Virus record (IMG/VR): IMGVR_UViG_3300042887_004758
Span: 1 to 64,000 of that record
Length of the DNA: 64,000 nucleotides
Source: a virus
Direction: 5' to 3' (one strand)
Shown here: positions 7,568 through 40,586 of the stretch, piece by piece
Layout of the letters: each line of letters begins with the position of its first letter
Position numbering within the stretch: the stretch's first letter is position 1
Notes under the pieces: generated by a model
Told to the model about the DNA's origin: nothing
What the model saw: the letters and a program-made list of their open reading frames with translations, nothing else
Databases searched by the model: none
Made by a program: the position numbers and the translations under genes

Positions 7568-7748
7568 ACATTTTTTTTAAAAATATACTTTTTATACCCG
7601 AACAAATGGACATGATGGTTCCTGCTGCCAATCACAGCCGTTAAATCCTTTGATATGTCCTTTTTTGTTGAGCATTGTTTTAATTTCTGATTATAAATAT
7701 ATCATATATTTTGAAAAATTCAAATTTTTTTTTGGGGAATATATTTAT

Positions 7749-8429
7749 ATGAAAAAGATAATCATGTTAAAGGTAAATCAAGAAGAAAAGGAAAGGATAT
7801 TGAAACTTCATTCAATTGAAGAACAAGCAACTCTAGCAGGTCAGACAAGTGTACCTACTGCTTCTAATCAGTCGAATCAATCTTCAGGGAATGCACAAAA
7901 TAATCGTACATTAGAATTTATAGAGGTACTACGTAAATTGACCGCCGCGTTTCATAATCCGGGTACAAATGTAAAAAAGGCACTCGAAGCATTTCAACGT
8001 GCAAATCCGGCAAAATTCGACGATATTATCCGAGAACTTATGAAAGAAACTACCAAAATTGACACATACAATGGATTAACCGCTGCACTCAATGGTGAAT
8101 ACGGTTTTCAAAATCGAAAAGACTTGGTGAATATAAATAAAGTTTTTACTGATAACAATTCTAAATTTAAATTGGATTGGAAAATAGGTACTGGTGGTGA
8201 TGATGTTAAGTCAATAAGACTCATATTGAATCCGAACTATAAAGCACCTCAGACTCAATCTAAACCTCAAACTCAACCTCAAACTCAACCTTCAACAGTA
8301 AAAAAAGCTATTTCAACAGAAGTTCAGAATAAAACAAAGGAAATACAAAAGGTTTTAAGTTTGACACAAACAGGTACGATGGATCAAGCAACCATAAATA
8401 AAGCTTACGAAATGATAAGTAAATTATAA
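7749..8429 (+). CDS. Peptidoglycan-binding-like protein with propeptide-like N-terminus
   Basis: The first 25 residues form a charged helix ending LHSIEE before QATL, matching the [LI]-x-E cleavage pattern expected for the gp21-type head protease and shared with several other proteins here. The middle (about residues 35-150) is an unrecognised globular domain, then a Gln/Pro/Thr-rich linker (about 162-180) and a C-terminal segment, KEIQKVLSLTQTGTMDQATI, typical of peptidoglycan-binding domain 1. No signal peptide. ATG 7749 directly abuts a TATTTAT motif, so the ATG at 7764 is an alternative start. Co-directional with a second such protein 5 nt downstream. Confidence 0.75.
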   Translation: MKKIIMLKVNQEEKERILKLHSIEEQATLAGQTSVPTASNQSNQSSGNAQNNRTLEFIEVLRKLTAAFHNPGTNVKKALEAFQRANPAKFDDIIRELMKETTKIDTYNGLTAALNGEYGFQNRKDLVNINKVFTDNNSKFKLDWKIGTGGDDVKSIRLILNPNYKAPQTQSKPQTQPQTQPSTVKKAISTEVQNKTKEIQKVLSLTQTGTMDQATINKAYEMISKL

Positions 8430-8434
8430 TTACT

Positions 8435-8887
8435 ATGAAAAAATTCATACTGACAGAAAGTGAAAAAAAACATATAAAAAATTTATATGGTTTGAATGAA
8501 CAAGCACAAACAACGACTCCACCAACAAACTATACAATTAAACAATTACAAGATTTGGTAATAAGTAAAGGGGTTAAAATTGTTCCAGATAATAGATATG
8601 GTCCCAAAACAGCAGGCGCGATATTGCAGTTGTTGAATTCTAAACCTACGACACAAACTCAATCTCAACCTCAACCTCAATCTCAACCTCAACCTCAACC
8701 CATCAAAATTGACCCCACCCAAACCCGTACCCCTCTCAATATTAATCTTCAATCTCAACCTGAAGTTAAACCTCAACCTCAAACTCAACAAGAGACAACA
8801 CCACCTGTATCGGCACCCGAAAAAATAAAACCTAAAGGGCCAAATAAAATACCGACAAATCCTCCAAAACCTCAACTTCGAAGATAA
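8435..8887 (+). CDS. Peptidoglycan-binding domain protein with propeptide-like N-terminus
   Basis: The N-terminal 22 residues (FILTESEKKHIKNLYGLNE, then QAQ) repeat the charged-helix plus L-x-E/Q pattern. Residues about 33-68 match the peptidoglycan-binding fold (IKQLQDLVISKG, then YGPKTAGAI). The C-terminal half is a low-complexity Pro/Gln/Thr linker encoded by CAACCT repeats, ending in a basic tail. Probably a virion-associated or packaged wall-binding protein; no catalytic domain is visible. It is immediately downstream of a similar gene and ends at a strong terminator. Confidence 0.75.
   Translation: MKKFILTESEKKHIKNLYGLNEQAQTTTPPTNYTIKQLQDLVISKGVKIVPDNRYGPKTAGAILQLLNSKPTTQTQSQPQPQSQPQPQPIKIDPTQTRTPLNINLQSQPEVKPQPQTQQETTPPVSAPEKIKPKGPNKIPTNPPKPQLRR
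8640..8790 (+). repeat. CAACCT/CAATCT low-complexity coding repeat
   Basis: Tandem hexanucleotide-like repeats CAACCTCAATCT encode alternating Pro-Gln and Ser-Gln in the linker of the preceding protein. Such tracts are prone to slippage and create a spurious Arg/Leu-rich antisense ORF. Confidence 0.85.
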
Positions 8888-8910
8888 ATAATATTACATA
8901 CAGTGATAAA

Positions 8911-8940
8911 AAAAAATAGGTCATACGACCTATTTTTTTT
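8911..8940. terminator. Bidirectional intrinsic terminator
   Basis: Stem AAAAATAGGTC/GACCTATTTTT with a short loop, flanked by A-run and T-run, between convergent genes. Confidence 0.85.
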
Positions 8941-8962
8941 TGTTATAATTAAATAATTGGAG

Positions 8963-9457
8963 TTAATATGAGAAACTTGTCATAAACTCATTATACATCT
9001 TTTCCGCTTCAACGGTAAAGATCCCACAGAAAGTTTTGGGTACTTCAACCTTTTTTACAAATTTCATATTTGCTTCTTCAGGAGTTCTATTCCCCTTCCT
9101 TGAATTACATTTCTTGCAACAAGTCACAAGGTTTGCCCAAGTATTTCCTCCTCCCCTTGATTTTGGAATTACGTGATCGATGGATAGGTCATTTTTGGTT
9201 CCACAATAAACACATTCATGATTATCTCTTTTGTATATCTTGTGTCTTGAGATACGTGATTTCACGGGTCTAAAACTTACATAATGCAAAAGACGAATGA
9301 TCAATGGTCTGATAAAATTTCCGATCGAAGTTGCGATGGGTTTTTCACCTCCTTTCAAAATTTCAGCTTTTCCTTTATGTACCAAGACGAATCCCCTCGT
9401 TAAAGTTGTTGTATTGATGGGTGTATAATCTGCGTTTAAAACCAAAACAGCTTCCAT
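8963..9457 (-). CDS. HNH endonuclease
   Basis: A full HNH/McrA-like core is present: CVYCGTKNDLSIDHVIPKS (about residues 82-100; first Cys pair and catalytic DH), then GNTWANLVTCCKKCNSRKG (about 104-122; Asn and second Cys pair). The N-terminal 60 residues (VLNADYTPIN...) are typical of the bacterial HNH_5-type family that begins with this segment. Zinc-dependent nicking or cutting of DNA is expected; it could be a homing nuclease or be involved in packaging. Monocistronic on the minus strand. Confidence 0.92.
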   Translation of the reverse strand: MEAVLVLNADYTPINTTTLTRGFVLVHKGKAEILKGGEKPIATSIGNFIRPLIIRLLHYVSFRPVKSRISRHKIYKRDNHECVYCGTKNDLSIDHVIPKSRGGGNTWANLVTCCKKCNSRKGNRTPEEANMKFVKKVEVPKTFCGIFTVEAEKMYNEFMTSFSY

Positions 9458-9510
9458 AATTAAAATTTTAAATGAATTATAGTTTATTTTAATTTTATAA
9501 TCAAAAAAAA

Positions 9511-9532
9511 CCCTCCACTTTTTGGTGGAGGG
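9511..9532 (-). terminator. Intrinsic terminator
   Basis: Stem CCCTCCAC/GTGGAGGG, loop of six, followed on the minus strand by eight T, directly after the 77-aa membrane gene. Confidence 0.85.
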
Positions 9533-9542
9533 ATTCAGGTAT

Positions 9543-9776
9543 TCAACCGTTTTGTTCTTCCTTATTCGGCAGTTGGAACCGTTCTTTGTTTTTCAGGAAA
9601 CCAAAGACGACCAACACGAAACCGACAAGTACTTCAACTGCTTGTACTGTTCCGTCCAAGTTCTCTGTTAGATAATCAACCAAAGGAACATAACTGTTCA
9701 ATCCAAAGAATACCAATAAGGTACCGATAGCTGTGAGAGCGTGTCTTACAACTGATTTAAATTTTTCTGTGTTCAT
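9543..9776 (-). CDS. Holin-like two-TM protein, 77 aa
   Basis: Two hydrophobic helices (about residues 13-31 and 44-61) separated by a short loop, with a charged C-terminus (KNKERFQLPNKEEQNG). Size and topology match class II holins, and it lies among peptidoglycan-active genes, so a holin role is plausible; nothing more specific can be seen. An [AG]TATTTAT motif (9798-9805) lies 22 nt upstream of the ATG, consistent with late expression. Confidence 0.7.
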   Translation of the reverse strand: MNTEKFKSVVRHALTAIGTLLVFFGLNSYVPLVDYLTENLDGTVQAVEVLVGFVLVVFGFLKNKERFQLPNKEEQNG

Positions 9777-9805
9777 GGGCGTTATTGTTTTATATCAATA
9801 AATAT

Positions 9806-9961
9806 TCATGAACTTCTGAAATTCTTAATTAAGTTATCGATTAATATAATCCCTCCGAGAATAAACAAACCTCCGGGAAGAAAAAAAACCATCAAAGTTA
9901 ACGTTTTGATAAACCAATTCTGTGATTTATAATTCTCAAGGTATTTATAAAAAGTATTCAT
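9806..9961 (-). CDS. Small membrane protein, 51 aa
   Basis: A short ORF reading MNTFYKYLENYKSQNWF then a hydrophobic stretch with two Gly-rich turns (about residues 19-42, including FFLPGGLFILGGIIL) and a charged end. One hairpin-like or single membrane span. It is encoded just upstream of the holin-like gene on the same strand and could be its partner (antiholin or spanin-like), which is inference from position. Family unknown. Confidence 0.55.
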   Translation of the reverse strand: MNTFYKYLENYKSQNWFIKTLTLMVFFLPGGLFILGGIILIDNLIKNFRSS

Positions 9962-9968
9962 TTTATCT

Positions 9969-10406
9969 ATGAAATTTTATCTGAACGAAAAACCATCGGT
10001 TGAATTTGACAAAAAATATGGAACAAATGTTTCATATGAATATGATTTTCATCCGTATAATGATCAATATCTTTGGAATGTTTTTATTAACTGTTTGGAT
10101 GAGGATGATGAGGATGCTTGTGAAGAAATGGATGAATTATTACCTTTTATTTTAAGTAAGTTTCCCGATGAAGGATTTGAATCTATTTTTGGAAGTGAAC
10201 CGATGACCGTTGTCTTTGGGATGCTGAGCGGGTATCATCCAAAAGATATAATTCAATACGTTTCAGGTATAACTTATAAGAATAATATTGAAGCCAAAGA
10301 ATTTGAAGAAAATATGAGGGAACACGTAGATCCGGATTTTAATTTCAACGGATGGGTTCCCTCATATTATACTCTGAAAAAACTCAACAAGTTCTTCAAC
10401 TTTTAA
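9969..10406 (+). CDS. Hypothetical acidic protein, 145 aa
   Basis: Not recognised. Acidic, with a Glu/Asp cluster at about residues 47-57, and no signal or membrane segment. It is transcribed divergently from the 51-aa membrane gene and overlaps the 3' end of the zinc-finger gene on the other strand by 4 nt. Function unknown. Confidence 0.7.
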   Translation: MKFYLNEKPSVEFDKKYGTNVSYEYDFHPYNDQYLWNVFINCLDEDDEDACEEMDELLPFILSKFPDEGFESIFGSEPMTVVFGMLSGYHPKDIIQYVSGITYKNNIEAKEFEENMREHVDPDFNFNGWVPSYYTLKKLNKFFNF

Positions 10407-10825
10407 ACAAGGACATTGACAAGCATCGATGCGTCCCCTTCCCATTTGTCAATCTGACTCTTTGGGATTTTGATTTCAAATTCACCAAGAGATTCGATCT
10501 TGTTTTCAATTTCTTGACGGAACGATTCAACTTGATTCTGTGTGGTTGGGAACTTTACTCCCAAGTGTTTGGAACATACGGGTCCGATGCTGGTGAGTTG
10601 TGACATCGGAGTTTTAAGAGTTGCTCCGCAACAACGGCAAACCTTCCCATTTTCTTTGGTGAGCTTGATCACCAAGTTGATGTTCGTCTTATCAAGGTCA
10701 ACCAAACCTACCACGTCCACAACTCGGGGAAAAAAGGTCAATCCATATTTTTCTTTGATCTGCATTCCGAACTTGCGGTTCATTTTGATCGTGTTGCCAA
10801 CACCCAAGTTGAATACCTTTTTCAT
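10403..10825 (-). CDS. Zinc-binding protein (DUF6011-like motif)
   Basis: A compact zinc motif CRCCGATLKTPMSQLTSIGP (about residues 63-82) then VCSKHLG matches the 'CxxCG-L...GxGPxC' ribbon common in phage and mobile-element proteins. The flanks are alpha/beta and the C-terminus is helical. The start is placed at MKKVFN (10825), because the promoter TTTG-N20-TATATTTG lies directly upstream and its transcript would begin near there; a start eight codons further up is less likely. Probable nucleic-acid or protein-binding role. Confidence 0.78.
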   Translation of the reverse strand: MKKVFNLGVGNTIKMNRKFGMQIKEKYGLTFFPRVVDVVGLVDLDKTNINLVIKLTKENGKVCRCCGATLKTPMSQLTSIGPVCSKHLGVKFPTTQNQVESFRQEIENKIESLGEFEIKIPKSQIDKWEGDASMLVNVLV

Positions 10826-10846
10826 GTCGTTTGTTTTTTCAGAACA

Positions 10847-10878
10847 CAAATATATGAATTGTTTTTCAAAAAAACAAA
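10847..10878 (-). promoter_or_regulatory. Bacteroidetes-type promoter
   Basis: TTTG (10875-10878), 20 nt, TATATTTG (10847-10854) on the minus strand before the zinc-motif gene. Confidence 0.8.
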
Positions 10879-10927
10879 TTTTTTCAGTCCGATCGATATT
10901 TATATAATAAAAATTTCCTGATTAGAT

Positions 10928-11824
10928 ATGAAAAATAAAAAAATTATTTCTGAAATTGATAGGATTAAAGAAATTATGAATCTTATTGTTGAAGCCGAGG
11001 TTGTAACAAATTACGATAAAGATTGGGATTATAAAAAAGATGGAAACATGTTCTATGCGAAGAAAAAAAATGAATCCAATTGGAAACGATTGAGTGGTAA
11101 TGCATTGAATTCGGTAAAACGACTTGTTTTTAAGATTAAAGATCAGAGTGGAAAATCTACAGATAGTGATCAGGACTCAAAAAATAAGGGTATAAAGGTT
11201 GGTAATATTGCACCCGAACAAAGAAGTCAAATAAATTTCAACAACCTGAGTACAACAAGTAGTACTTCGAACATTTGTAAAACTGATTCAACGAATTGTG
11301 CACAATTTGTTAATGATATCAGACCCGATTTGGAATATGTTGGTGACGCTTGGCTCGCTTATCAGAACGAAAACCTGGGTAAACGAATCCATAATTCATT
11401 CAATGATCTTACAACTGATGAACAAAAAAAAATTAAGGATTTGTGGTTGAAAATTTACAAGTCAGGCGGAGATTATGATAATTACAATACTGAAGTGAAA
11501 AATGTAGTGAGTCAATTAGTTCCCGGCACAGGCAAAGTGACAGATTTAAAACTTAATGATGTGGTCGGGATTTTTTATCCACCATCAACACATCATGGAG
11601 AAGCATTTTATGAAGGTGGAAAAAAATGGTTCAAAGACAATGAAAAAGGGGAAAAGATAATTGGAAAAACTCTTGGAACAGGTCTTGGTTGGGGTATGAA
11701 TACTCACATAGGTACAGTTTCGGTAGTGAAAGATGGTGTCCCTTTGGTCTTCCATAATGTCAAAGGAAATGTAAAAAGTGAACCGGCTTCCAATCTCAGA
11801 ATAGCATGGATCAGAAGAAAATAA
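10928..11824 (+). CDS. NlpC/P60-like peptidase with propeptide-like N-terminus
   Basis: Residues 1-22 end in IISEIDRIKEIMNLIVE before AEVV, the strongest example of the shared [LI]-x-E tag. The C-terminal half has the arrangement of a papain-like wall peptidase: Cys in STNCAQFVNDI (about residue 125), His in NTHIGTVSVV (about 257) and a polar third position in VFHNVKG. Such enzymes cut peptide cross-bridges of peptidoglycan. There is no signal peptide, so delivery as virion cargo or through a holin is needed. The 3' end overlaps the next gene by 19 nt, suggesting translational coupling. Confidence 0.75.
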   Translation: MKNKKIISEIDRIKEIMNLIVEAEVVTNYDKDWDYKKDGNMFYAKKKNESNWKRLSGNALNSVKRLVFKIKDQSGKSTDSDQDSKNKGIKVGNIAPEQRSQINFNNLSTTSSTSNICKTDSTNCAQFVNDIRPDLEYVGDAWLAYQNENLGKRIHNSFNDLTTDEQKKIKDLWLKIYKSGGDYDNYNTEVKNVVSQLVPGTGKVTDLKLNDVVGIFYPPSTHHGEAFYEGGKKWFKDNEKGEKIIGKTLGTGLGWGMNTHIGTVSVVKDGVPLVFHNVKGNVKSEPASNLRIAWIRRK

Positions 11825-12573
11825 TTAGTATCAGAGAAGAAGTTCAAAGGATTAATGAGTTAATTTTTATCACAGAACAAGGTTCTGTTGATAGATTTGT
11901 AGATAATCAATCCAAAACTCTATTAGAACCATTTTTCAAGCAATTTAATGAACTAAAAAAACAGTACCCCTGTGTGCCCTCTAATTTTGTTATACCCTTA
12001 TCAAATTTAATTAATAAAGGATATGATAAAAATTATTTAAAATATGCTTTATCTATAATAGGTAGAGAAAGTTCTTTCGAATCAGGTACAAGGTATAATA
12101 CATACGGTCAGGCAAAAAACATTTTATCGACATTTGGTGTCGACACTTCAAGCGGACCTGCACAAATGAAACCTTCAACAGCGAAAGAACTTGGGTTTAC
12201 TCAACAAGATATTCTAAACAGAGAAAAGGCTTTGTTGGCGGTATATAAATATATCCAAAAATACATACAGGAATCTTCAAAAATGGGATTCCAAAACAAA
12301 CCATCAAACGTAAAAAATGGTTCAGGTAATGCTCAGATTGATATTACCATAGCTTCATATAATAAAGGTGTTCGTGACACAATAGTAAAATGGTGTGAAT
12401 CAAAATTACCCGAAAGAAAAAAACAAGGATTAAAAGATCCTTGTTTTGGTACGAATGGAGATAAGAGTAAACCAATAATGAATTATGTTCCGAATTATGT
12501 TGATGGAAACGCATCAACTCACGGATATATACAAGAAGTCGTACTCAATTACAAAAAATTTAGTTGTTTTTAG
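11806..12573 (+). CDS. SLT-like lytic transglycosylase with propeptide-like N-terminus
   Basis: Lysozyme-like fold motifs are in order: catalytic Glu in GRESSFESG (about residue 89), SSGPAQMKPSTAKELG (about 121-136) and ASYNKGV (about 187), as in soluble lytic transglycosylases that cleave the MurNAc-GlcNAc bond. The first 24 residues (IISIREEVQRINELIFITE then QGS) again match the propeptide pattern. No signal peptide. It overlaps the NlpC/P60-like gene, so two different wall hydrolases are made from one transcript. The 3' end abuts the convergent glycosidase gene. Confidence 0.82.
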   Translation: MDQKKIISIREEVQRINELIFITEQGSVDRFVDNQSKTLLEPFFKQFNELKKQYPCVPSNFVIPLSNLINKGYDKNYLKYALSIIGRESSFESGTRYNTYGQAKNILSTFGVDTSSGPAQMKPSTAKELGFTQQDILNREKALLAVYKYIQKYIQESSKMGFQNKPSNVKNGSGNAQIDITIASYNKGVRDTIVKWCESKLPERKKQGLKDPCFGTNGDKSKPIMNYVPNYVDGNASTHGYIQEVVLNYKKFSCF

Positions 12574-13292
12574 TCAATGGTGAGGTAAGTTGTTGGTTCA
12601 CCCAATGATAATAACTTGGAAATAATTTTTGGTGAAGAGTCGAACCCCACCGAAAATTCACCATTATCGAAGTAGTAATCAACAGAACTTCCACCATCAT
12701 AGAGAATTGCATTTTTCAAATTGAATTTGTTTGCTTCCTCAATAATTTCAGCGATAGTAACTAAACCATTAAATTTAGACGCGATAATTACAATATCTCC
12801 ATTATTATTTTGACCAACAATATTTCTGTACGTCCTTTCTTTGGCATGGTTCATACGAGTTAATCTTTTATTCACCCTACCGTTTTTGATCCCAATTAGA
12901 ATGGATTGAGAGGCAAAAGTTACATTTTTTGGACAGCTAGGTGACACATGACTTTTTCCATTTTTTACGTAAAAATATCCACCTCGATCAACTCTACTTG
13001 ACTTTCTTTTTTTGTTGATTACAACCAATCCGATGGGATTTTCGTTGGGATCAAAAAAATTTGTGTTCATATAGAATGTAGAATTACCTCTTTTATTTTC
13101 GGAGACTTCGAAGTCAGTATTCTTGTCAAAAATGAACACATTCATTTGGTTGTTTTCCAAAATCTTCACGGACTCGTTTTCATACTGTACTCTATAATCT
13201 TGAAATGCGGAAGTAATTCCGTTATTCATGAAAAAATTACATGAAGACAACAATATACTCATGCTCAAGAGAACTAAAAGGATATTTTTCAT
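12570..13292 (-). CDS. Lipoprotein phosphodiester glycosidase (NAGPA-like)
   Basis: A lipoprotein signal is clear: hydrophobic segment then LLSSC at residues 15-19. The body matches the phosphodiester glycosidase family: YMNTNFFDPNENPIGLVV (about 73-90), GGYFYVKNG, and ILYDGGSSVDYYF (about 201-213). Relatives remove sugar from phosphodiesters (GlcNAc-phosphomannose) or act on exopolymers. Predicted location is the inner or outer membrane, facing the periplasm. The -7 element TAAATTTG lies 5 nt upstream of the ATG. A role in superinfection exclusion or envelope polymer processing is inference. Confidence 0.82.
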   Translation of the reverse strand: MKNILLVLLSMSILLSSCNFFMNNGITSAFQDYRVQYENESVKILENNQMNVFIFDKNTDFEVSENKRGNSTFYMNTNFFDPNENPIGLVVINKKRKSSRVDRGGYFYVKNGKSHVSPSCPKNVTFASQSILIGIKNGRVNKRLTRMNHAKERTYRNIVGQNNNGDIVIIASKFNGLVTIAEIIEEANKFNLKNAILYDGGSSVDYYFDNGEFSVGFDSSPKIISKLLSLGEPTTYLTID

Positions 13293-13296
13293 GATT

Positions 13297-13304
13297 CAAA
13301 TTTA
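13297..13304 (-). promoter_or_regulatory. Promoter -7 element TAAATTTG
   Basis: Match to TAnnTTTG 5 nt before the lipoprotein start codon; no TTTG is found 19-21 nt further upstream. A TATTTAT motif also occurs higher up (about 13357). Confidence 0.5.
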
Positions 13305-13404
13305 CAAAATTTAGATGAAAAAAAAAAATTAATTCGTAACTTTATTCGAGGTCTAATAAATATATATCATATCGACTAAGATTACTGAGTGTTCAAAATA
13401 CATT

Positions 13405-13995
13405 TTATCTTCTAACATTTACAGTGGAGTAAAACCTTCTTTGTTCTTTGTCGTAAAGGGTGGATATTGAAATACGATTAAATTTTGGATCTGTAAGAAT
13501 TTTCCAATGAGAAGGACTGTCTCGATATTGAGTTAAAAACATACTTTCCTCGGTTTCATCGAATCGATAATTGAAAGCCACACATTCTCCAACACCGTTA
13601 TATCCGACATATTCGATTCTTTCGGATAAGGTATACTTACCTTCACTATGTGAAATTTTCCTGTTTTGTAGTTGCCATAAGTTGTGAGGATGACTTAAGA
13701 TAAGATACATAGAAGAATCATAGGATAATGAATTCAAATTCATTTCTCTTCTTACCTTATTCAGATGGTTATAAAAATTTAAACTCATTTGATGACATAG
13801 TGAATCGATATTTGTCTCATCAGGATCTAAGTTACGGGTGTTTGAGATGATGTGAGGGTGTTCTTCACAAGAAACAATAATCGTGTCTTTTCCTACTATT
13901 TCAAAACAGGTATAGAACTTTGGTGACATACCTGTGATCTGAGATTTCATCGATATAGAGAATAACAAAAGAGGGATGAGGATCCAAAATTTCAT
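13405..13995 (-). CDS. Secreted CAP/SCP-like protein
   Basis: Signal peptide MKFWILIPLLLFSISMKSQ fixes the start at this internal Met; an in-frame Met 16 codons earlier would put a hydrophobic, Lys-rich stretch before it. The mature part carries CAP-superfamily features: HLNKVRREMNLNSLSYDSSM (helix with 'VR...L.yd'), HSEGKYTLSERI, GECVAF in place of the GEN motif, and SPSHWKILTDPKF. Bacterial CAP proteins are extracellular with mostly unknown roles. Predicted periplasmic. A phage-secreted CAP protein is unusual. Confidence 0.75.
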   Translation of the reverse strand: MKFWILIPLLLFSISMKSQITGMSPKFYTCFEIVGKDTIIVSCEEHPHIISNTRNLDPDETNIDSLCHQMSLNFYNHLNKVRREMNLNSLSYDSSMYLILSHPHNLWQLQNRKISHSEGKYTLSERIEYVGYNGVGECVAFNYRFDETEESMFLTQYRDSPSHWKILTDPKFNRISISTLYDKEQRRFYSTVNVRR

Positions 13996-14066
13996 GTATT
14001 TCAACGTTTTTAGAAAGATAAAAATATTTAAATTCTTATACAACTATTTATTAAGAAAAAATTAGT

Positions 14067-15368
14067 ATGAAAAAAAATGTTATTTTCGAAATTGATAGGA
14101 TGAAAGAAATGATGGGTTTGATTAATGAACAAACAACTATTGGTCAGTGTTCAGGTAGTAATGAAATTAGTAATCCAGTTGTTGATGTATTGGAAATGTC
14201 ACAAGACGGTAACAGTGTAAAATTCAGATTAAAAGGATTTTTTGGGGCATCTAAAACAGAATCTGATAGTTATACGAGTATGTTGACCAAATTGAAAAAT
14301 ACCATAATTTCTAAATTAGATAAGGCATCGAGTCCTGAAGGATATGAATTGAAATTTATTAATATAGAATCAGCTATAGGATCGGCTAGTAATTATTATA
14401 ACGGACCTCTGAGACCAACTAACGATAATAATGGTAAGTTGATGAATCTTGATGTTTTATATAAACAGGAGCCTTATAAGGATATAAGAAAATTACATGG
14501 AGGGGACCCCAAAAAGTTCGATAGTGATACCGAAACAAATATGGGATTTGCATCTCAGAGAGTAAGTAAATTTCTTAAACATATTCAGGAAACCGCCGAT
14601 AAAACAGGTATTTCTTTAAGTGAAAACTTTACTCAAAGTAAAATATCTCCAATTATCACAGATACTGGAGGTTGTATAGATGAAAAAAGAGATAGTTCTA
14701 AATACCCAAATCCAGGTCAATATGTTGATTTAACAGGGTTAGTTCAGATAAAAAAGAATCCCGCAAAATGTTTAGAGGGTTTAAAAATTGTGGTTGGTTA
14801 TTTTAGATCTCCTAAAGTTGTGGATGGAATAAAAATCCCTAAAAATTCCCAAAATCACACATGTGTATTTGCCACATTTAATATTTTTGCAAATGGTGTT
14901 CCTATTGGTATATCTAATATGAATAATATGACTAAAGACTATCATAATCGGGAGCATTTTGATAAGTACGGTACAAGGTCTAAACTTGATTGGAATACAA
15001 CTCGTATTGGTACTCAAGATAATAGTACTCAAAAAAGATTTGAATTTGTAGAAGACGGTTTAATACCTGAGGATCCAGTATATGGAAAACAAGGATGGAC
15101 TGTCTATACGATCATTGACGTACCTAGTGACAAATTGAAGGAAATTGCGAGTAAAAGCCCTGATGGAAGGGTTAATTTGATGATGTCACCAAACACTGAC
15201 AGTGCACTAAGGGAGGGTGGTAAGGCGCATGGTGATGCGCCAATGGTTGCCGCTTATAAAATAAATAACGGTGTAGTTACCGAATTTTACGGACCAAAAG
15301 AACCCTATGGTAATATAGGTAATGTGAAAAGTGCCGTCGGTATAGGTAGTTTCATACCATGTCAATAA
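14067..15368 (+). CDS. Unknown protein with propeptide-like N-terminus, 433 aa
   Basis: Residues 1-21 (VIFEIDRMKEMMGLINE then QTT) are almost the same as the tag on the NlpC/P60-like protein, and LINE is also the predicted cleavage site of the major capsid protein. The remaining 410 residues are not recognised; they contain few Cys, a Gly/Asn-rich pattern and a beta-rich C-terminal half. No signal peptide. Preceded by TATTTAT 15 nt before the ATG and followed by a strong terminator, so it is an independent, probably late unit. A packaged or virion protein is inferred. Confidence 0.72.
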   Translation: MKKNVIFEIDRMKEMMGLINEQTTIGQCSGSNEISNPVVDVLEMSQDGNSVKFRLKGFFGASKTESDSYTSMLTKLKNTIISKLDKASSPEGYELKFINIESAIGSASNYYNGPLRPTNDNNGKLMNLDVLYKQEPYKDIRKLHGGDPKKFDSDTETNMGFASQRVSKFLKHIQETADKTGISLSENFTQSKISPIITDTGGCIDEKRDSSKYPNPGQYVDLTGLVQIKKNPAKCLEGLKIVVGYFRSPKVVDGIKIPKNSQNHTCVFATFNIFANGVPIGISNMNNMTKDYHNREHFDKYGTRSKLDWNTTRIGTQDNSTQKRFEFVEDGLIPEDPVYGKQGWTVYTIIDVPSDKLKEIASKSPDGRVNLMMSPNTDSALREGGKAHGDAPMVAAYKINNGVVTEFYGPKEPYGNIGNVKSAVGIGSFIPCQ

Positions 15369-23413: not shown

Positions 23414-23805
23414 AACTCGTCTATGTGAATGAACTTGGACCTGACTATAAAGGAAATAACACATACGAATTTATTTTCTCAAAAAACGAAGAGGTCTACG
23501 GTGAAGATTGGGATGTAAGTCCCGCCTCAGGGAGACCATTTCCACCCCAATTGGAGTTCATTCATTGTGTTTTAAAACTGAGCAGTTCCGACATTAAGTT
23601 GGAACTTGTTCGTAATTCTGATTACTTCAATATGTACGATGCAATTGATGGTGTCATTTCTTTGGCTTGGGAATCTGAAGACTCGGGATATGAAGGAAAC
23701 CAAAGATTGGTCTTTAGATTTGGAGATGATATTTCTATAATAAAGGATAAATTTTACGAAAGAGATATAGTTCTTTCAGAGGAAAAAATATTGCAAACAC
23801 CATGA
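23410..23805 (+). CDS. Hypothetical protein, 131 aa
   Basis: A compact acidic alpha/beta protein starting MKLVYVNELGPDYKGNNTYE, with aromatic and acidic residues throughout, not recognised. Overlaps both neighbours by 4 nt, so it is translationally coupled in the pre-TerL operon. Confidence 0.75.
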   Translation: MKLVYVNELGPDYKGNNTYEFIFSKNEEVYGEDWDVSPASGRPFPPQLEFIHCVLKLSSSDIKLELVRNSDYFNMYDAIDGVISLAWESEDSGYEGNQRLVFRFGDDISIIKDKFYERDIVLSEEKILQTP

Positions 23806-24767
23806 ACAAAAAAAATATCAAAGTCTTACTTGACGAAGGTTTTTCAATTAAAACAATTCGTTCTTTAAGTGAAAACCAAAGAAATATTTTGGCAAAAAAA
23901 ATATTAAAAGAAGCTCAAACTTCTATTGTGAAACAAACAACTTATCCAAAAGCGGAAGTTGATAAAATGAAAAAAGAAGGGGGATTGCCTGTGAATGGTA
24001 AAGTTGTTCCGAATCAAGATGGATCTTTGACTGTTGTTTCAGGTGATGGAGAAATGAAAGAAAATCAGGATGATTTGACTGCTCTCACAAGAGAAGGACT
24101 ACATGATGCTGACGACATGGCGCCTGATGGTATGGATGATGATTCCGACAATAATAGATCAATGATGAATGAATTATCTGACGAAGAAATTGATCTTATG
24201 TTAGATATCATTAAGTCAAAAAAATCAAATGGTGAAAAAGGTGAAATCGAAGAAAAGTTTCAAAGTAAATCACAACAAAAATACTTCTTTGCTAAATGTA
24301 ATGATGAATCATTAAGTAAAAAAGAAAGAAATAAGTGGTGTAGTATGGCTGACGAATTTGCACAACACACAAATTTCAAAAAACTACCCGAAAAAGTAAA
24401 AGAAGATAATCTTAAATCTTTGGAGGAAAGTGTTATGAAAATTGTTAAAAAACATATTCCAGCAAGTATTACCAAGGGTGACTTGGTTAAATTAGTTAAT
24501 GAAGCTCCTTTAACCAAACCTGTACCTGTAAAGGAACCTGGTGTTGTTCCGTCGAGACCTGAAAGAAAAACACCTTTTCAACCAAAACACAAACCAAAAC
24601 CAAAGGCAGGAAAAGAATTACCTGATTGGATGAGTTATTCGGAAATTTTTGATTCTGAACCATTTACAAAGCCAGTACCTGTAAAACCAGATGTTGCACC
24701 ATCCAAACCTGAAAGAAAAACTCCATTTCAACCAAAGCATAAACCAAAACCAAAGGCGGAGAAATAA
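23802..24767 (+). CDS. Structural-type protein with duplicated basic tail, 321 aa
   Basis: The N-terminus (about 37 residues, ending KKILKE before AQT) again fits an [LI]-x-E protease site. The middle holds an acidic stretch and a motif YFFAKCNDESLSKKERNKWC followed by MADEFAQHT, seen in other T4-like phage head-region proteins. The C-terminus consists of two copies of a Pro/Lys-rich segment (TKPVPVK..., ERKTPFQPKHKPKPKA), the first at residues about 237-269, the second at 288-320. Such basic tails could bind DNA. Function unknown. Confidence 0.72.
   Translation: MNKKNIKVLLDEGFSIKTIRSLSENQRNILAKKILKEAQTSIVKQTTYPKAEVDKMKKEGGLPVNGKVVPNQDGSLTVVSGDGEMKENQDDLTALTREGLHDADDMAPDGMDDDSDNNRSMMNELSDEEIDLMLDIIKSKKSNGEKGEIEEKFQSKSQQKYFFAKCNDESLSKKERNKWCSMADEFAQHTNFKKLPEKVKEDNLKSLEESVMKIVKKHIPASITKGDLVKLVNEAPLTKPVPVKEPGVVPSRPERKTPFQPKHKPKPKAGKELPDWMSYSEIFDSEPFTKPVPVKPDVAPSKPERKTPFQPKHKPKPKAEK
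24512..24762 (+). repeat. Imperfect intragenic duplication (about 97 bp units)
   Basis: Two diverged copies (24512-24608 and 24665-24762) encode the Pro/Lys-rich tail segments of the preceding protein, separated by a 56-bp spacer. Confidence 0.8.
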
Positions 24768-26056
24768 TGAGACAGGATTTAAAAAATACAGTAAGAAAGG
24801 CTTTATTAGAGGCACCGATTAGATATGATGGTCCTGAAAGAATGGATCCTTCTTTGGAAGATCTTTTTAACAGAGGAGAAACACCTTATAGTAAAAATCC
24901 TGCTCTTCCCGATAAAAATAACGATGGAATACCTGATTCTTTCGAACAAATTATCGCAAGTAAAAGATTCAAGGATGTTATTGAAAATTTGAAACGCCTT
25001 ACAGGTGTAACAAATTTATCGGGAATGAATGGTATGATGCAGTTACAAACTTTGGTTATGGGAGCATCGAATAGAATTCTACAGATTCAATCTAGTCACA
25101 AAGAATATTTGGAAAATTTGGCAATTGATTTGGTGAAGAAGGAAACCGGTATTACAGATCAAGTAAATTTTGAAGCGGACTTAGTTAATCCAGGTGAAAT
25201 TTCAAAACAAGGTATGAGTTCTAAACCAGAAGAGTACGATGAGGATGAAATTGAAAAACAATTCGGAGGTGAAGAGGACGAAGAAGAAGATTTTCAAGAT
25301 GACTTTATGTCATTTATGAATTCTATGGAGAATTTTAACGCGGAAACCGCAAAAAGAAGAATTTTAAATGCATTGATTCAGGGTGGTGCAAAAAAAGGTC
25401 ACTACATGTACCAACTTGTAGTTCCAGAATTAGATAGATTGAATCCTGATTTGGTAAGATTATATGGTGTTATAATGTCATATGCTGACTATCTATATTG
25501 GATTATGCCTAACCAACAAATGTTGAATATGGCAGGTAGTGGTGAAGGAATGATGGGTAAAGAAGAAGTTGACGAAACTACAGATCCTCCAACCGTAAAA
25601 GCACAGGCTACATGGTTTCCACTTCTCATTCATGAACTACTTAAAGGTGTGAACGATTTGGTTATGACTCAGGGTTTACCTGACGATCCAAGATCGGCAG
25701 AAATGGTTATGGGGGTTGCAGACACTTTACCACATGAAATTTGGGATATGAGAGTCGGACCAATTATATATGAAAAATTGGTAAATGCTTATCCTGATGA
25801 ACTATTTGACGAAGACAAGAAAATCATTCAGTTCTATCTCAAATCAAGAATTGCCTCTCTGAGTACTGACGAGTTCTTCAAGACTATGAAAGAAATTCTC
25901 GCAGAAACACCAAAAGGCAAGCAAATTGTGGACAAAATGGTAAAAGAGATTATTCAGGAACTCAAAGATCAAGAATATGAAGATGCTATGGGTTCAGAAG
26001 ATGATGATGAAGACTTGGATAATTTCCTCTCTAATCTCGGAATAAGTTTAAATTAA
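24767..26056 (+). CDS. Structural-type protein upstream of terminase, 429 aa
   Basis: The first 15 residues (LKNTVRKALLE before APIR) fit the propeptide pattern. A calcium-binding-like loop DKNNDGIPDSFE occurs at about residues 44-55, an acidic linker at about 157-185, and the rest is mostly helical. It directly precedes TerL (3-nt gap), where T4 has the small terminase, but it is far larger than gp16 and shows no helix-turn-helix. A neck, head-completion or maturation-protease substrate is possible; not resolved. Confidence 0.72.
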   Translation: MRQDLKNTVRKALLEAPIRYDGPERMDPSLEDLFNRGETPYSKNPALPDKNNDGIPDSFEQIIASKRFKDVIENLKRLTGVTNLSGMNGMMQLQTLVMGASNRILQIQSSHKEYLENLAIDLVKKETGITDQVNFEADLVNPGEISKQGMSSKPEEYDEDEIEKQFGGEEDEEEDFQDDFMSFMNSMENFNAETAKRRILNALIQGGAKKGHYMYQLVVPELDRLNPDLVRLYGVIMSYADYLYWIMPNQQMLNMAGSGEGMMGKEEVDETTDPPTVKAQATWFPLLIHELLKGVNDLVMTQGLPDDPRSAEMVMGVADTLPHEIWDMRVGPIIYEKLVNAYPDELFDEDKKIIQFYLKSRIASLSTDEFFKTMKEILAETPKGKQIVDKMVKEIIQELKDQEYEDAMGSEDDDEDLDNFLSNLGISLN

Positions 26057-26059
26057 TGG

Positions 26060-27829
26060 ATGGGGTTAACAAGAGAACAGGTATTATTAGAATATGCCAA
26101 ATGTGTCAAAAGTCCTGAATATGCGTTAAAAACATATTTGAAAACTTATGATCAAACAGTTCAGGGGTTCGTACCCCTGAAGTTGTTTCCTGACCAAGTG
26201 AAATTGATTGAGGATTTTGAAAAGTTTGAAGAAAATATTGCGTTAAAATATAGACAGGCGGGAGTTTCCACTGTCACCGCAGCTTGGATTTCCAAAAAGT
26301 TGATCACAGCTCCGAAGGGAAAACCTGAAAAGATATTGATCATTGCCAACAAACTTGACACTGCCGTTGGTATGGCCGATAAAATCAGGTCTTTCCAAGA
26401 GCAATGGCCCGATTGGTTTGGCGTTAGTTTTTCATCGGAAAAAAACTCCCAACGTCACTTCAGATTGACAAATGGTTGTGAAGTAAAAGCGGTTGCAACA
26501 TCAAAAGACGCATTGAGAGGTTATACCCCAACTATCCTTGTATTTGACGAAGCAGCATATATTGAAGCGGATGATGATTTCTGGGCGGCTTGTATGGCCT
26601 CACTCTCAACGGGTGGTAAAGTTATAGTTATTTCAACTCCCAACGGATTTGATCAAATTTATTATTCAATTTACGATCAAGCTTTACGGGGTATGAATGA
26701 TTTTAAAATATCTGAAATGTATTGGTATAGAGATCCAAGATATACCAAAGACCTTTATTTAGTAAAAACCAAAGATATAGTTCATTATTTGTTAAATAAA
26801 GAAGAATATTCTGAAGAGGAACACGTAATTAGGTTGGATGGTGCGGGTTGGGATTTGGATCTTGAATTTGTTATTCAAAAAATCAATGAAGGTTATAAAC
26901 CTTGTTCTTCTTGGTTTGAAACTATGGTTAAGAAGTTGAAATACGATAGAAGAAAGGTGTCTCAAGAATTGGAGTGTAACTTTCTTGGTTCGGGTGACAA
27001 TGTCATTGACTCTGGAACTATGGAAAAAATCAAGAAAAATGATATTAAAGAACCCAAAGACAAGATGATGGGAGGGGCGTTATGGGTTTGGGAGGATCCA
27101 ATATTGGATCACAAATATATTATGGGTGTGGATGTGTCAAGAGGTGATTCAGAGGACTTTACAACCTTTAATATAGTTGATTTTGATACAAGAGAACAGG
27201 TTGTTGAATTTTTGGACAAAGTTCCACCTGATATTGCCGCTGAAATTGCCTTAAAATGGGCACAAAGATACAACGCATTTGTGGTTATTGACATCACGGG
27301 TGGTATGGGTGTATCAACGGCAAGGAAGATGCAAGAGCTGGGGTATAAAAACCTTTATATCGATGGTCAAGTATCGACTGACATATGGAAATATGATCCA
27401 AAAGCGCAAGAGAAAATACCGGGAATTAATTTCAATAACAAAAGGGTTCAGATTATTGCAACTTTTGAAGAATATATTAGACACGGTTTCAAAATCAGAT
27501 CATCAAGATTATATAATGAATTACTAACTTTTGTTTATATAAACGGAAGACCTGACCATATCAAAGGACAACATGACGACTTGATTATGTCTGTTGCTAT
27601 GGCTTTATATGTTGGGGAAAGTAGTTTTTCCAAACTTACAAAGGTGACCGAACAAGCAAAAGCAATGATTGATTCTTGGACGGTAAATGAAAGTGTAAAA
27701 TATAAAACTGACTTTATGAATCCGAGTGTTCCATCGTATTATGGTCAAACAAATAACGATTCCAATCGAAGTTATAATCAGAAAGACGTAGAGAAATATT
27801 TATGGCTCTTCGGAGGAATGAGAAGATAA
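26060..27829 (+). CDS. Terminase large subunit (gp17-like)
   Basis: ATPase motor: adenine-binding/Walker-A-like region KYRQAGVSTV (about residues 63-72; the T4-type deviant P-loop), Walker B ILVFDEAAYI (about 165-174) and coupling motif STPNG. Nuclease domain: GVDVSRGDSEDFTTF (about 356-370) with the catalytic Asp, later acidic residues in DITGG and QHDDLIMSVA. At 589 aa it is a normal size for T4-type TerL. It packages concatemeric DNA through the portal. Downstream gene order (portal, protease, scaffold, capsid) matches T4. Confidence 0.96.
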   Translation: MGLTREQVLLEYAKCVKSPEYALKTYLKTYDQTVQGFVPLKLFPDQVKLIEDFEKFEENIALKYRQAGVSTVTAAWISKKLITAPKGKPEKILIIANKLDTAVGMADKIRSFQEQWPDWFGVSFSSEKNSQRHFRLTNGCEVKAVATSKDALRGYTPTILVFDEAAYIEADDDFWAACMASLSTGGKVIVISTPNGFDQIYYSIYDQALRGMNDFKISEMYWYRDPRYTKDLYLVKTKDIVHYLLNKEEYSEEEHVIRLDGAGWDLDLEFVIQKINEGYKPCSSWFETMVKKLKYDRRKVSQELECNFLGSGDNVIDSGTMEKIKKNDIKEPKDKMMGGALWVWEDPILDHKYIMGVDVSRGDSEDFTTFNIVDFDTREQVVEFLDKVPPDIAAEIALKWAQRYNAFVVIDITGGMGVSTARKMQELGYKNLYIDGQVSTDIWKYDPKAQEKIPGINFNNKRVQIIATFEEYIRHGFKIRSSRLYNELLTFVYINGRPDHIKGQHDDLIMSVAMALYVGESSFSKLTKVTEQAKAMIDSWTVNESVKYKTDFMNPSVPSYYGQTNNDSNRSYNQKDVEKYLWLFGGMRR

Positions 27830-30714: not shown

Positions 30715-31167
30715 ATGAAGAAGGGAAAATCAATAAAAATTAATGGATTTAAAGATTTCAAAATAAATTATGGTACGGTAGATTTCAAATCTATGAAATC
30801 AATTTATTTGGTCATTCAGGCGTGGGTGGAACCAATAACAGATCTTGAATCGTGGTCATCGGTGGTCAATACATTAAGAAGGGACATAAAACACAAATTA
30901 TTGGATTCAATAGATCTGAATATATTCAACGGAAGAACAATAGTTGATCTTGATCTCAGAACCTCAGGAATTCAGGAAGGGAAGAGGAGTTTTATGAATT
31001 TGGAAATCACATTATTTTTGGATGAATATATTGATTTCAAATCAGAACAATTAAAAAAATCATTAACAACAATCTGTAAATATATTACAAAAAATAGTTT
31101 CAAATCCAACAGGTATTTCTCATTTCATCTTTCAAAGATGGAAACACCCGTAAAATTGTTGGCGTGA
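30715..31167 (+). CDS. Hypothetical head-region protein, 150 aa
   Basis: Basic alpha/beta protein with VDLDLRTSGIQEGKRSFMNL (about residues 82-101) and a long helical C-terminus; not recognised, but its position between core protein and protease suggests head assembly. An AAGGGA 8 nt before the ATG is one of the few Shine-Dalgarno-like sequences in the window. Confidence 0.7.
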   Translation: MKKGKSIKINGFKDFKINYGTVDFKSMKSIYLVIQAWVEPITDLESWSSVVNTLRRDIKHKLLDSIDLNIFNGRTIVDLDLRTSGIQEGKRSFMNLEITLFLDEYIDFKSEQLKKSLTTICKYITKNSFKSNRYFSFHLSKMETPVKLLA

Positions 31168-31182
31168 ATTATATTTATTTAT

Positions 31183-32028
31183 ATGATTGAAAAATTTATT
31201 GAGTTATCACAAGAAACCGATAAAAGTCTCGTAGAATTTATCGAGGCTTTTTTCGGTGGTAATATTGAAGTTTTTTATAAAAAAATTAAATCGAGTGGTG
31301 ATTCAATTCCTGCCTCTATTTTACTTGATCTATATCACCAATATCCAGCATCAACTTTAAAATATGTTTCATCTGTCGGTGATCAGGAACTTAATGAACT
31401 TATATTTGAGGTGTTAATTGATCATAGTAGGGGTTTATCAAAGGATGGTGATGAATATTTCTATCGTATTGATAAGTTAAGAGATTTTGAGATATTCTTT
31501 GATCGTGAGACAAAAGAAGATAGATGGTTAACACAAGGGTTTTGGGACATAGATTGTTATGATTATTGGAATGATGTAATATCTTCTGAAAACAAAAAAA
31601 ATATTAAGAATTTTTCGGATTATGAAAAATCTATAATTTGTATATTCATAGAAACAGCAATTAAAATTTCAATAAAAGATAAAATAAATTCCAAAATATT
31701 TCAGACAATCAGTGATTATTTGGGATACCCCGATGGATCGGGTGTTCGTGAAGATGGAAATGGATATATTTTAAATGTCACCAAAATGATTTCTCAATTG
31801 GCTGAGGACACAAAAGAGTTAATCGAAAATGGTGAAGTTGACAATTCAACACAGCTTGCTTGGGACAACGGAATGTTTTATTTAATACGTTTTACTGTCT
31901 CTATTGAGGTTGAATTCGGTTCATTAGTTGACGAAAACTCGATAAGAAAAGTCTCAAAAGACATTAATAATTATATTACAACATATTTATCTAGTAAAAA
32001 AAATGAAAGAACAACTAAGAGTACTTGA
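31183..32028 (+). CDS. Hypothetical head-region protein, 281 aa
   Basis: Acidic mixed alpha/beta protein with no recognised motif. ATATTTAT ends 4 nt before the ATG. Its last 26 nt overlap the start of the head protease gene, so the two are translationally coupled, which suggests a role in protease regulation or prohead assembly (inference). Confidence 0.7.
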   Translation: MIEKFIELSQETDKSLVEFIEAFFGGNIEVFYKKIKSSGDSIPASILLDLYHQYPASTLKYVSSVGDQELNELIFEVLIDHSRGLSKDGDEYFYRIDKLRDFEIFFDRETKEDRWLTQGFWDIDCYDYWNDVISSENKKNIKNFSDYEKSIICIFIETAIKISIKDKINSKIFQTISDYLGYPDGSGVREDGNGYILNVTKMISQLAEDTKELIENGEVDNSTQLAWDNGMFYLIRFTVSIEVEFGSLVDENSIRKVSKDINNYITTYLSSKKNERTTKST

Positions 32029-32731
32029 GGCTCACGAAACCGGTAAAGGTATTTTGGTGGAGCACGATGCGGGATATATCTCACCAAATCATCCTGAAAA
32101 CGAAAAGGTTATCATGGAATCCAAGTCAATGAGAGATCATTCCAAACCATTTATATTCTATGCTGTTCTTCAAAAGTTTGATACTCCAAATAGAAACGGA
32201 AGATTATATCCCGAAAAAATATTAAAAAGAGAAGCCGAAAATTATAAGAGAATGATCCAAAAGGGAACTTCCCTTTCAGAGTTGAATCACCCCGAATCAT
32301 CTATTGTAGATTTGGAAAGAGTTTCACACATTATTGATGATGTATGGTGGGACGGAAATACCTTGATGGGTAAACTCAGACTTCTAACCTCACCAGCGTT
32401 TCACGAAACAGGTATTGTTTCTACACCTGGTGATATTGCTGCAAACCTTATGAGACAAGGATGTACAATGGGTATATCTTCAAGAGGGGTGGGGACTCTA
32501 AAAAAGAAGGGAGAACAAAATGAAGTACAAGACGATTTTGAACTTATCTGTTTTGACTTAGTTAGTTCACCATCAACACCAGGAGCATATCTTTTTGACA
32601 AACCTGAAGATAAATTCAACTTTGAAGAAAACATAGAAGAAGAAAGAAATTTAAGAAAACCTGAATCTGAAAAAGGATTGGGTAAGTCTCTTGATTTAAT
32701 GAACAAACTTTCCGATTTTTTGGGAAGATAA
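32003..32731 (+). CDS. Prohead maturation protease (gp21-like)
   Basis: A serine protease of the T4 gp21 / herpesvirus-assemblin type: DTPNRNGRLYPEKIL (about residues 53-67), catalytic His in SELNHPESS (about 93), and catalytic Ser in TMGISSRGVG (about 157-158), followed by FDLVSSPSTPGA. These enzymes cut head proteins after [LI]-x-E. Matching sites are visible in the capsid protein and many other proteins in this window. 242 aa is a normal length; the C-terminal 40 residues are a likely autocleaved tail. Confidence 0.93.
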   Translation: MKEQLRVLEAHETGKGILVEHDAGYISPNHPENEKVIMESKSMRDHSKPFIFYAVLQKFDTPNRNGRLYPEKILKREAENYKRMIQKGTSLSELNHPESSIVDLERVSHIIDDVWWDGNTLMGKLRLLTSPAFHETGIVSTPGDIAANLMRQGCTMGISSRGVGTLKKKGEQNEVQDDFELICFDLVSSPSTPGAYLFDKPEDKFNFEENIEEERNLRKPESEKGLGKSLDLMNKLSDFLGR

Positions 32732-32981: not shown

Positions 32982-33068
32982 ATTTAATTTCATTAATATA
33001 CAAAAAATGTTAGATTTTTCTATAGAAGGGTATATTTATTTAGAAAAATAAATCTACTTAAATAGAAA

Positions 33069-36458: not shown

Positions 36459-37361
36459 ATGTCTCAGTTAAAAGAAGATTTAGCGGTTTGGTTTGGTAAA
36501 AAGAAAAAATCTAAAGGGTCAAAACAACCACAAGGGCCGTGGGTGAATATATGTAAAAAAAAGGAAGGTGGTGGTCATCCTCCCTGTGGAAGAGATGAGG
36601 GTGAAACAAGAGGTTATCCTGTATGTAGGGCTAGATCTGTGGCTTCCAAAATGACTGAAGAGGAGAAAAAATCTGCTTGTGCAAGAAAAAGATCAAAAGA
36701 AAAGAAAGACCCTCAATCAGGGAAGGGACAAAAACCAACAAGAATTCAAATAAAAGGATACAAAAAAGAATCAGTTATGGATAAAAAGCCAATTTTTGAG
36801 TGGAAAACTCTCAACGAAAATAAGATTGTTTTGAGTGAAGAAATGAAATATCATATTGATAATAATATTTCAATTCACGAAAATGTTTTTAGGATGGGAT
36901 CTGACAAATATTTCTCTTTATTTAGGGAAGCAAGAAGTTTGGGTTATGAAAACTTCAACAATCAAGTGGATAGATGGTTAATTAAAAATACAGATATTGG
37001 TTTGTTTGAACTATATGAAGGGGAATTAGTTCCTTTAGATGTCCCGATGTTATATGAAGCCGAGTATCAGGGAAAAAAGGTTCAATTAAATAAACCTATG
37101 AGAGGGGGTAGTGGTGGAAAAAAATTCAAGGTTTATGTAAAAGATCCAAAGACGGGTAATGTAAGAAAAGTTTCATTTGGTGCCGCTGGAGGTGGTGGAT
37201 CCTTGGCTGTTAAATTAAAAGATCCTGCGGCTAAGAGATCATTTGCCGCAAGACACAAATGTCATACAACCAAAGACAAAACAACTGCGTCTTATTGGGC
37301 ATGTCGTTTACCAAGATATGCTAAGTCTTTGGGGTTAAGTGGTGGTGGAACATGGTGGTAA
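36459..37361 (+). CDS. DUF5872-like virion protein, 300 aa
   Basis: The first 90 residues match the DUF5872 pattern of phage structural genes: DLAVWFGKKKKSKGSKQPQG, PWVNICKKKEGGGHPPCGR, then YPVCRARSVASKM. The C-terminal 90 residues carry a second Cys/His set (AARHKCHTTKDKTTASYWAC then RLPRY), which also recurs near head genes of T4-like cyanophages. Probably a metal-binding structural or neck-region protein. ATATTTAT lies 11 nt before the ATG. Overlaps the next gene by 10 nt. Confidence 0.78.
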   Translation: MSQLKEDLAVWFGKKKKSKGSKQPQGPWVNICKKKEGGGHPPCGRDEGETRGYPVCRARSVASKMTEEEKKSACARKRSKEKKDPQSGKGQKPTRIQIKGYKKESVMDKKPIFEWKTLNENKIVLSEEMKYHIDNNISIHENVFRMGSDKYFSLFREARSLGYENFNNQVDRWLIKNTDIGLFELYEGELVPLDVPMLYEAEYQGKKVQLNKPMRGGSGGKKFKVYVKDPKTGNVRKVSFGAAGGGGSLAVKLKDPAAKRSFAARHKCHTTKDKTTASYWACRLPRYAKSLGLSGGGTWW

Positions 37362-40585: not shown

Positions 40586-40586
40586 T

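Follow-up and report, generated by a model that had tools for sequence, protein, structure and literature searches.

Swappable N-terminal tags on unrelated proteins of T4-like phages as probable capsid-targeting propeptides

The window analysed here comprises bases 1–64000 of a 109,981-base IMG/VR virus record (IMGVR_UViG_3300042887_004758), and our subject is a family of short N-terminal tags, ending in [LIV]-x-E, that precede otherwise unrelated proteins of this phage and its relatives. The record is that of a T4-like phage. Its T4-type head module (features of the window that are given as ranges lie on the + strand unless stated) contains a terminase-like gene (26060), a portal gene (27870), a gp21-like prohead protease of family S77 (32003–32731; PF03420, E = 9e-26, 91 bits against a cut-off of 27) that is conserved in relatives, a scaffold-position gene (33069–34322) and a gp23-like major capsid gene (34344). 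The scaffold-position product is gp22-like, as judged from its position and from blastp to its counterpart in Flavobacterium phage vB_FspM_immuto_2-6A (immuto), and is the presumed tag-binding core. The capsid protein begins with a propeptide (34344–34523) that ends in LINE at residue 60, followed by AAS and the mature protein (34524–36146). This site is found in 80 of the 80 relatives inspected; in distant relatives it reads LIYE, then A (L206), and IVSE, then A (immuto).

Five genes between positions 7749 and 15368 begin with such a tag, as a preliminary description of this DNA had stated, and the predicted cuts can be read in the sequence. The single shared pattern seen in that description resolves into two classes, B and C, defined below. 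Gene 7749–8429 opens with the class B tag MKKIIMLKVNQEEKERILKLHSIEE, then Q (7749–7823; predicted cut after IEE-25), recognised by a hidden Markov model (HMM). Gene 8435 carries the class B tag MKKFILTESEKKHIKNLYGLNE, then Q (8435–8500; 39.4 bits, as an HMM seed), with a predicted cut after LNE-22. The class C tags are those of gene 10928 (MKNKKIISEIDRIKEIMNLIVE, then A; 10928–10993, predicted cut after IVE-22), gene 11806 (MDQKKIISIREEVQRINELIFITE, then Q; 11806–11877, predicted cut after ITE-24) and gene 14067 (MKKNVIFEIDRMKEMMGLINE, then Q; 14067–14129, predicted cut after INE-21; 38 bits, again as a seed), the first two being identified by HMM and by alignment of homologues. The bodies of the five genes span 7824–8429, 8501–8887, 10994–11824, 11878–12573 and 14130–15368, respectively.

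The further sites named in the preliminary description, including LINE-60 of the capsid protein, are likewise present. Virion-cluster gene 23802 has an N-terminal region ending in LKE-37, then A (23802–23912), and its homologues have similar ends. In virion-cluster gene 24767 the short tag is MRQDLKNTVRKALLE (LLE-15), then A (24767–24811), and homologues have the same body preceded by N-termini of varying length ending in xxE. On the − strand lie the tag-like N-terminus of gene 42273, MSKIILNNEDMKEILRRFLIE (LIE-21), then A (42465–42527), with a payload related to phrog_27331, and the short tag of gene 55420, MKLLEILKKQIILE (ILE-14), then V (55765–55806), whose ending is shared by homologues. 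Beyond the window, the same record has short tags at 85764, 86234 and 86638, a class C tag at 106352 and a possible tag at 92213.

The record set consisted of the window's record, ten related records and immuto (12 phage records, 1,621 called genes); the relatives and immuto were taken nearly whole, and genes were read with a simple open reading frame (ORF) caller. Four classes, all ending in [LIV]-x-E, are common to the window's record and the ten relatives: class A, KKIxRLTESDLxRIVKRVIxE, then Q; class B, KFIITEEEKxxIxxLY...E; class C, KxIxSEIxRIKEIMGLxxxE; and class D, which is short (roughly 10–19 residues) and T4-like. At 15 bits or more, the class A HMM matched 27 of the 1,621 N-termini, none of 1,621 shuffled sequences and 3 of 6,098 internal windows, these three looking like mis-called starts or fusions. 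The class B HMM (12 bits or more) matched 31 N-termini and the class C HMM 23, with no shuffled or internal match for either; since the HMMs contain their own seeds, the near-empty controls weigh more than these member counts. An HMM search thus places N-termini far above both kinds of control. The number of class A–C tags per record reaches 23 in G008 (294 kb), 14 in G006 and 13 in G002, and is 6 in the window's record. Immuto has members of classes C and D and an extra class, MENFDLKKFLVENKLT; its candidate tags are those of genes 25061 and 111675 (MKKQILSEQFxRMQxLAGIITE, then S), of genes 1803, 103806, 117631 and 118632 (the set ENFDLKKFLVEN) and of genes 102294, 102880 and 113188 (MKKSxLxxIIxxEL type). 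When the class A consensus was compared with INPHARED phages by tblastn, nothing matched at a limit as loose as E = 10, which for so short a query is not proof of absence. A further N-terminal family resembling class B occurs in G002, G006, G007, G008 and G009 (for example G008 36916–37392), where the conserved segment behind it, NGYQTxQPxxxxxPLxVxxxAxDK, lacks the cut motif.

Searched for as a DNA pattern, LTESDLxxIVK has at least 145 matches in IMG/VR, and the class A payload and conservation counts given here rest on the matches listed. Among these, 141 of 145 lie within 12 residues of a Met. This N-terminal placement, together with the near-empty controls, speaks against a chance resemblance of short charged helices, a reading that could draw on the frequency of [LI]xE by itself and on the modest enrichment of class D. 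The motif followed by Q, A, S or E within residues 8–32 occurs in 12.6% of proteins and in 5.7% of internal windows, with no excess for the [LI]xD control (4.9% against 5.4%); class D is enriched only 3.3-fold over internal windows, so that single class D calls are uncertain and perhaps one in three is wrong. We attach a negligible probability to coincidence as a general explanation, and for classes A–C it is ruled out by the shuffled and internal-window controls.

The end of the tag is sharply defined. Among the matches listed, 122 non-redundant class A cases place the end of [LIVM]xE at residue 16 in 102 and at residue 20 in 13. The longer forms are mostly LHxIVKESVN, with about one extra helical turn, and also occur in Prevotella-type genomes; in three of the remaining seven cases the ORF ends within the tag or directly behind it. 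Across the 102 short-form tags E has an information content of 3.55 bits, the preceding residue 0.91 and the following residue 1.56, with a drop to 0.24 bits two residues past E and to near zero from there on. Because these tags were chosen for [LIVM]xE, E is in part invariant through that choice; the drop past it does not come from the choice. Conservation that stops one residue past E, while the residue before E varies, is hard to reconcile with a helix that stays uncut and serves in oligomerisation, as a degradation signal or in translation control, its [LIV]xE end being incidental. The presence of class A genes in some Bacteroidota chromosomes, away from phage genes, would suit such a helix, whereas the depletion of [LI]xE in the tagged bodies and the concordance with S77 and gp23, both described below, would not, and we consider it highly improbable. 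The chromosomal genes themselves were seen in Prevotella, Segatella and Bacteroidaceae genomes (L295, L306, L273 and L300), adjoining similar transposase-like genes in L306 and L273; they could be phage remnants, satellites or host genes exploiting the tag.

Behind this conserved end the payloads diverge, 119 class A payloads among the matches listed falling into 86 blastp clusters. Conversely, homologous payloads stand behind different tags. Homologues of gene 11806 carry tag C in the window, tag A in G006 and L316 and tag B in L315, and the final Glu lines up across all these tags. Those of gene 10928 also carry tags C, A and B, with a tandem B and A in L315, and the homologues of 10928 and 11806 adjoin in G006, L315 and L316 as they do in the window. 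A third family, from the virion cluster (YMFFSNLEQMRRQC, YMFFSN), has tag A in most records and a short tag D in G002, G008 and G009, and a fourth has tag B in G002 and tag A in G008. The classes are therefore exchangeable in evolution, and the tag lies outside these payload folds; as judged from these alignments, the tags are swappable modules. Tag–payload shuffling, previously suggested for the capsid-targeting sequences (CTSs) of T4 (PMC9026906), is seen here as homologous payloads behind three tag classes. In the AlphaFold model of 11806, a helix at residues 3–22 is predicted with very low confidence (predicted local distance difference test, pLDDT, below 50 for residues 1–25) and the body is better predicted; the model of 10928 is similar, with a low-confidence, detached helix at the tag. 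Swapping and models together contradict, for 10928 and 11806, the possibility raised in the preliminary description that the N-termini belong to the globular folds of their own proteins. A related-locus search in IMG/VR returned no relatives for 11806 or 14067, those of 11806 having come through neighbouring genes and blastp.

Proteins that enter a prohead containing an active protease specific for [LI]xE should avoid this motif in their bodies. In 167 tagged bodies [LI]xE occurs 269 times and the reversed motif Ex[LI] 371 times, a ratio of 0.725, compared with 3,566 and 3,602 (0.99) in untagged genes of the same records, and none of 5,000 length-matched draws gave a ratio as low. The ratio is 0.71 for class A, 0.77 for class B and 0.81 for class C, and it is 0.74 in a further class A set from outside these records; LxD and LxK show no asymmetry. 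Given the deficits at other spacings and differences in composition, we take this depletion as support and not as proof. In T4, the mature internal proteins IPI–III contain no [LI]xE if ITE-19 of IPI is taken as the cut, and gp22, which is degraded, is rich in it (16 against 6 reversed).

The distribution of the protease was compared with that of the tags. S77 is present in 14 of 25 large tag-bearing viral records: in each of the 13 that have a gp23 head and in one further record that has S77 alone. An absolute requirement of the tags for S77 could not be shown from these 14 of 25. Among 16 random large viral records, S77 was found in three, two of them near-identical in size and match, and the only class A tag in this set falls in one of the three. 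In G055 (the record behind L347), the S77 match at 30848–31858 is interrupted, its two parts lying about 500 bases from each other in a single 402-residue open frame, possibly reflecting an in-frame insertion.

The tagged genes share an upstream motif with the head genes. TATTTAT was scored within 50 nt upstream and lies mostly 11–13 or 20–25 nt from the start codon. It precedes 44 of 49 tagged lead genes that have an upstream gap and 223 of 566 others (p = 2e-12), a figure that is partly post hoc since the motif was first noticed at the same tagged genes. As a separate check, 51 of 81 virion genes and 2 of 29 replication-type genes in the same records have the motif (p = 7e-8), orthologues in related phages not being independent. 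It is found at the protease gene in 10 of 10 cases, at the scaffold gene in 9 of 10, at the portal gene in 9 of 10 and at the sheath gene in 6 of 6, and is absent at the capsid gene, which closely follows the scaffold gene. In the window it occurs upstream of gene 7749 (7742–7748), 31 nt upstream of gene 10928 (10897–10903), 22 nt upstream of gene 14067 (14045–14051) and upstream of the scaffold-position gene (33033–33039). For gene 7749, the Met at 7764 is probably the real start and would put its motif at the usual distance of 22 nt. Upstream of tagged genes there is no enrichment of the T4 late promoter, TATAAATA; TATTTAT is its reverse complement minus one base and may act as a late promoter.

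The preliminary description took the cargo of the window to include two wall hydrolases and two wall-binding proteins, which was borne out in part. All top Foldseek hits of the 11806 model are lytic transglycosylases, with probabilities as high as 0.99 but E values of 0.1 or more; there was no Pfam or PDB sequence match, and a PDB search with its profile gave nothing meaningful. On the strength of the model, 11806 is probably a lytic transglycosylase. For 10928, there is no sequence or fold match to a known hydrolase: Pfam gave none, PDB searches by sequence and profile found nothing meaningful and the fold search returned only noise, although PG_binding_1 is found in three of seven aligned family members. 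As to wall binding, 7749 contains a PG_binding_1-like stretch under the Pfam cut-off (E = 0.0091), and for the Pro/Gln-rich body of 8435 Pfam gave no match and PHROG a weak one (E = 0.045), with no confident family. The body of 14067 could be assigned to no family either. Elsewhere, the tagged payloads include a VanY and PG_binding_1 protein (G002 56904), a Phage_lysozyme protein behind a short tag (G008 26906), one M23 match and a PPK2 protein with a class C tag (G008 25806), whose PDB PPK2 matches begin at residue 122 (E = 1e-69). Wall-active enzymes are thus common among recognisable payloads without being the rule, and most payloads match nothing. The tagged PPK2 protein, with about 100 extra N-terminal residues, adjoins the short-tagged lysozyme (G008 25806–26906, L110). 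A tagged 526-residue protein in G008 (48148–49728, L111) has two wall-peptidase-like domains separated by a tag-like linker (LFGE, SVNNRKILTE) and is perhaps a polyprotein split by the head protease.

The over-representation of wall enzymes among recognisable payloads, and the location of most known myovirus virion lysins in the tail (PMC5380687), would favour tags that act as assembly propeptides, docking virion-associated lysins on the tail or baseplate. We judge this unlikely: the capsid protein has the same cut motif, the depletion of [LI]xE points to exposure to the head protease and many payloads, such as PPK2, are not wall enzymes. The tagged wall enzymes might also be ordinary lysis enzymes whose tag is an inhibitory propeptide that delays activity, and genes 10928 and 11806 do sit with wall-related homologues as in a lysis cassette; with the same tags on PPK2 and on many small proteins without a match, and with a separate untagged lysozyme (237333) beside the tagged one in G008, this is very unlikely.

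Capsid protein relatives are encoded in at least 599 IMG/VR stretches, and the best match among annotated phages with a named Bacteroidota host is immuto (about 42% identity over 56%), a cultivated phage of Flavobacterium sp. LMO8. From this match, from secreted proteins of Bacteroidota type encoded in the window and from the Prevotella-type genomes with the tag, we infer Bacteroidota as the host group. Between the virion genes, at 37802–42179 on the − strand, are a gene for a 927-residue TonB-dependent-receptor-like protein and one for a 530-residue protein with a signal peptide and a C-terminus like a type-IX secretion sorting domain. Neither has a PHROG match, and such genes are unusual for a phage. 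A secreted-looking protein, also without a PHROG match, is encoded on the − strand (12570–13292) after the 10928–11806 pair, as it is in L315 and L316.

The modularity of the tags, their cut-like conserved end, the depletion of the motif in the bodies, the shared upstream motif and the protease, with the same motif in the capsid protein, lead us to regard it as very probable that the tags are capsid-targeting propeptides that follow the logic of T4, with loading into the head, cutting by S77 after [LIV]-x-E and probable ejection. The core idea of the preliminary description, T4-like tags cleaved by the head protease on unrelated proteins, is in this respect well supported at the level of sequence. 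Several points weigh against it. The HMM results include their own seeds, TATTTAT was counted in the genes where it was first noticed, smaller deficits than that of [LI]xE occur at other L-to-E spacings in tagged bodies and some class A tags lie on chromosomes of Prevotella type that show no obvious phage genes in the surrounding 8 kb. Moreover, 11 of the 25 large tag-bearing records lack S77; these lack gp23 too and hence look like fragments missing the head module.

In the proposed mechanism, cargo genes would be transcribed together with the virion genes, and the N-terminal amphipathic helix would bind the prohead core, or scaffold, so that the protein becomes part of the prohead. A cut after [LIV]-x-E by the gp21-like S77 protease would then free the mature protein inside the head, where it would stay with the DNA, probably to be ejected at infection. 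During entry, wall-active cargo would do its work in the periplasm, and enzymes such as PPK2 and the payloads without a match would be active inside the newly infected cell. We infer that the tagged proteins are expressed late, bind the scaffold and are packaged, cleaved and ejected. The tags suggest a large protein payload that may be carried in the virus head and is probably injected together with the DNA. As the tag classes (A–D, and others in immuto) are interchangeable, cargo would be freely exchanged. We lean slightly towards the broader proposal of a general cargo system in a large and widespread group of T4-like phages of Bacteroidota, in which interchangeable tags would serve to deliver a varying complement of proteins (wall enzymes, a polyphosphate kinase and many without a match), as many as dozens in one virion, and the virion would be a particle that injects many proteins. 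If this is correct, a short N-terminal pattern predicts head contents from sequence in a group of phages that is common but for the most part uncultured, and proteins in at least 86 clusters, most of them nameless, gain a first functional clue, as virion cargo likely to act in the first minutes of infection (entry, anti-defence or metabolism). What tailed phages inject besides DNA would become a searchable list, and further tags would be available for loading proteins into phage heads.

The literature searched, including by tag letters, which are seldom printed, contained no description of the tag family; subscription papers were outside this search. Packaged and ejected wall hydrolases, which the preliminary description thought undescribed, are already known: T7 gp16, SP6 gp36 and phi29 gp3 are carried inside the head and delivered as the phage enters (PMC5380687, PMC8954989). 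These are podovirus proteins with no described shared cleavable tag, whereas here separate candidate enzymes stand behind probable propeptides in T4-like phages. In P1, an N-terminal signal of DarB sends the protein and a fused reporter into the head, although no consensus shared by the Dar proteins was found there (PMC9024508); the tags described here are clearly shared. In phiKZ-like phages and SPN3US, many head and ejection proteins are cut after x-x-E by a gp21-related protease (PMC9026906, PMC5694885), as proposed here, but their propeptides are mostly long (often more than 100 residues), end in S/A-x-E or A-x-E and have not been presented as one tag that is shared and swapped. The closest parallel is T4, in which ten N-terminal residues of IPIII are enough for packaging and the cuts made by gp21 follow L/I-x-E (PMC9026906). 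The CTSs of IPI–III and Alt are likewise short N-terminal propeptides ending in L/I-x-E, on unrelated payloads, in a phage with a gp21-family (S77) protease and a gp23 head. They are 6–19 residues long (MKTYQEFIAE, then A), against mostly 20–33 here. Class D resembles them in length and pattern, one homologue reading MKTYKKRINE, then A, whereas classes A–C do not. Our phages differ from T4 in their upstream motif and cargo families, in having several unrelated tag classes that are interchangeable on homologous payloads and in encoding far more predicted cargo per genome. It is the tag family, its modularity and its scale that are new here, as a much expanded form of the T4 capsid-targeting sequence.

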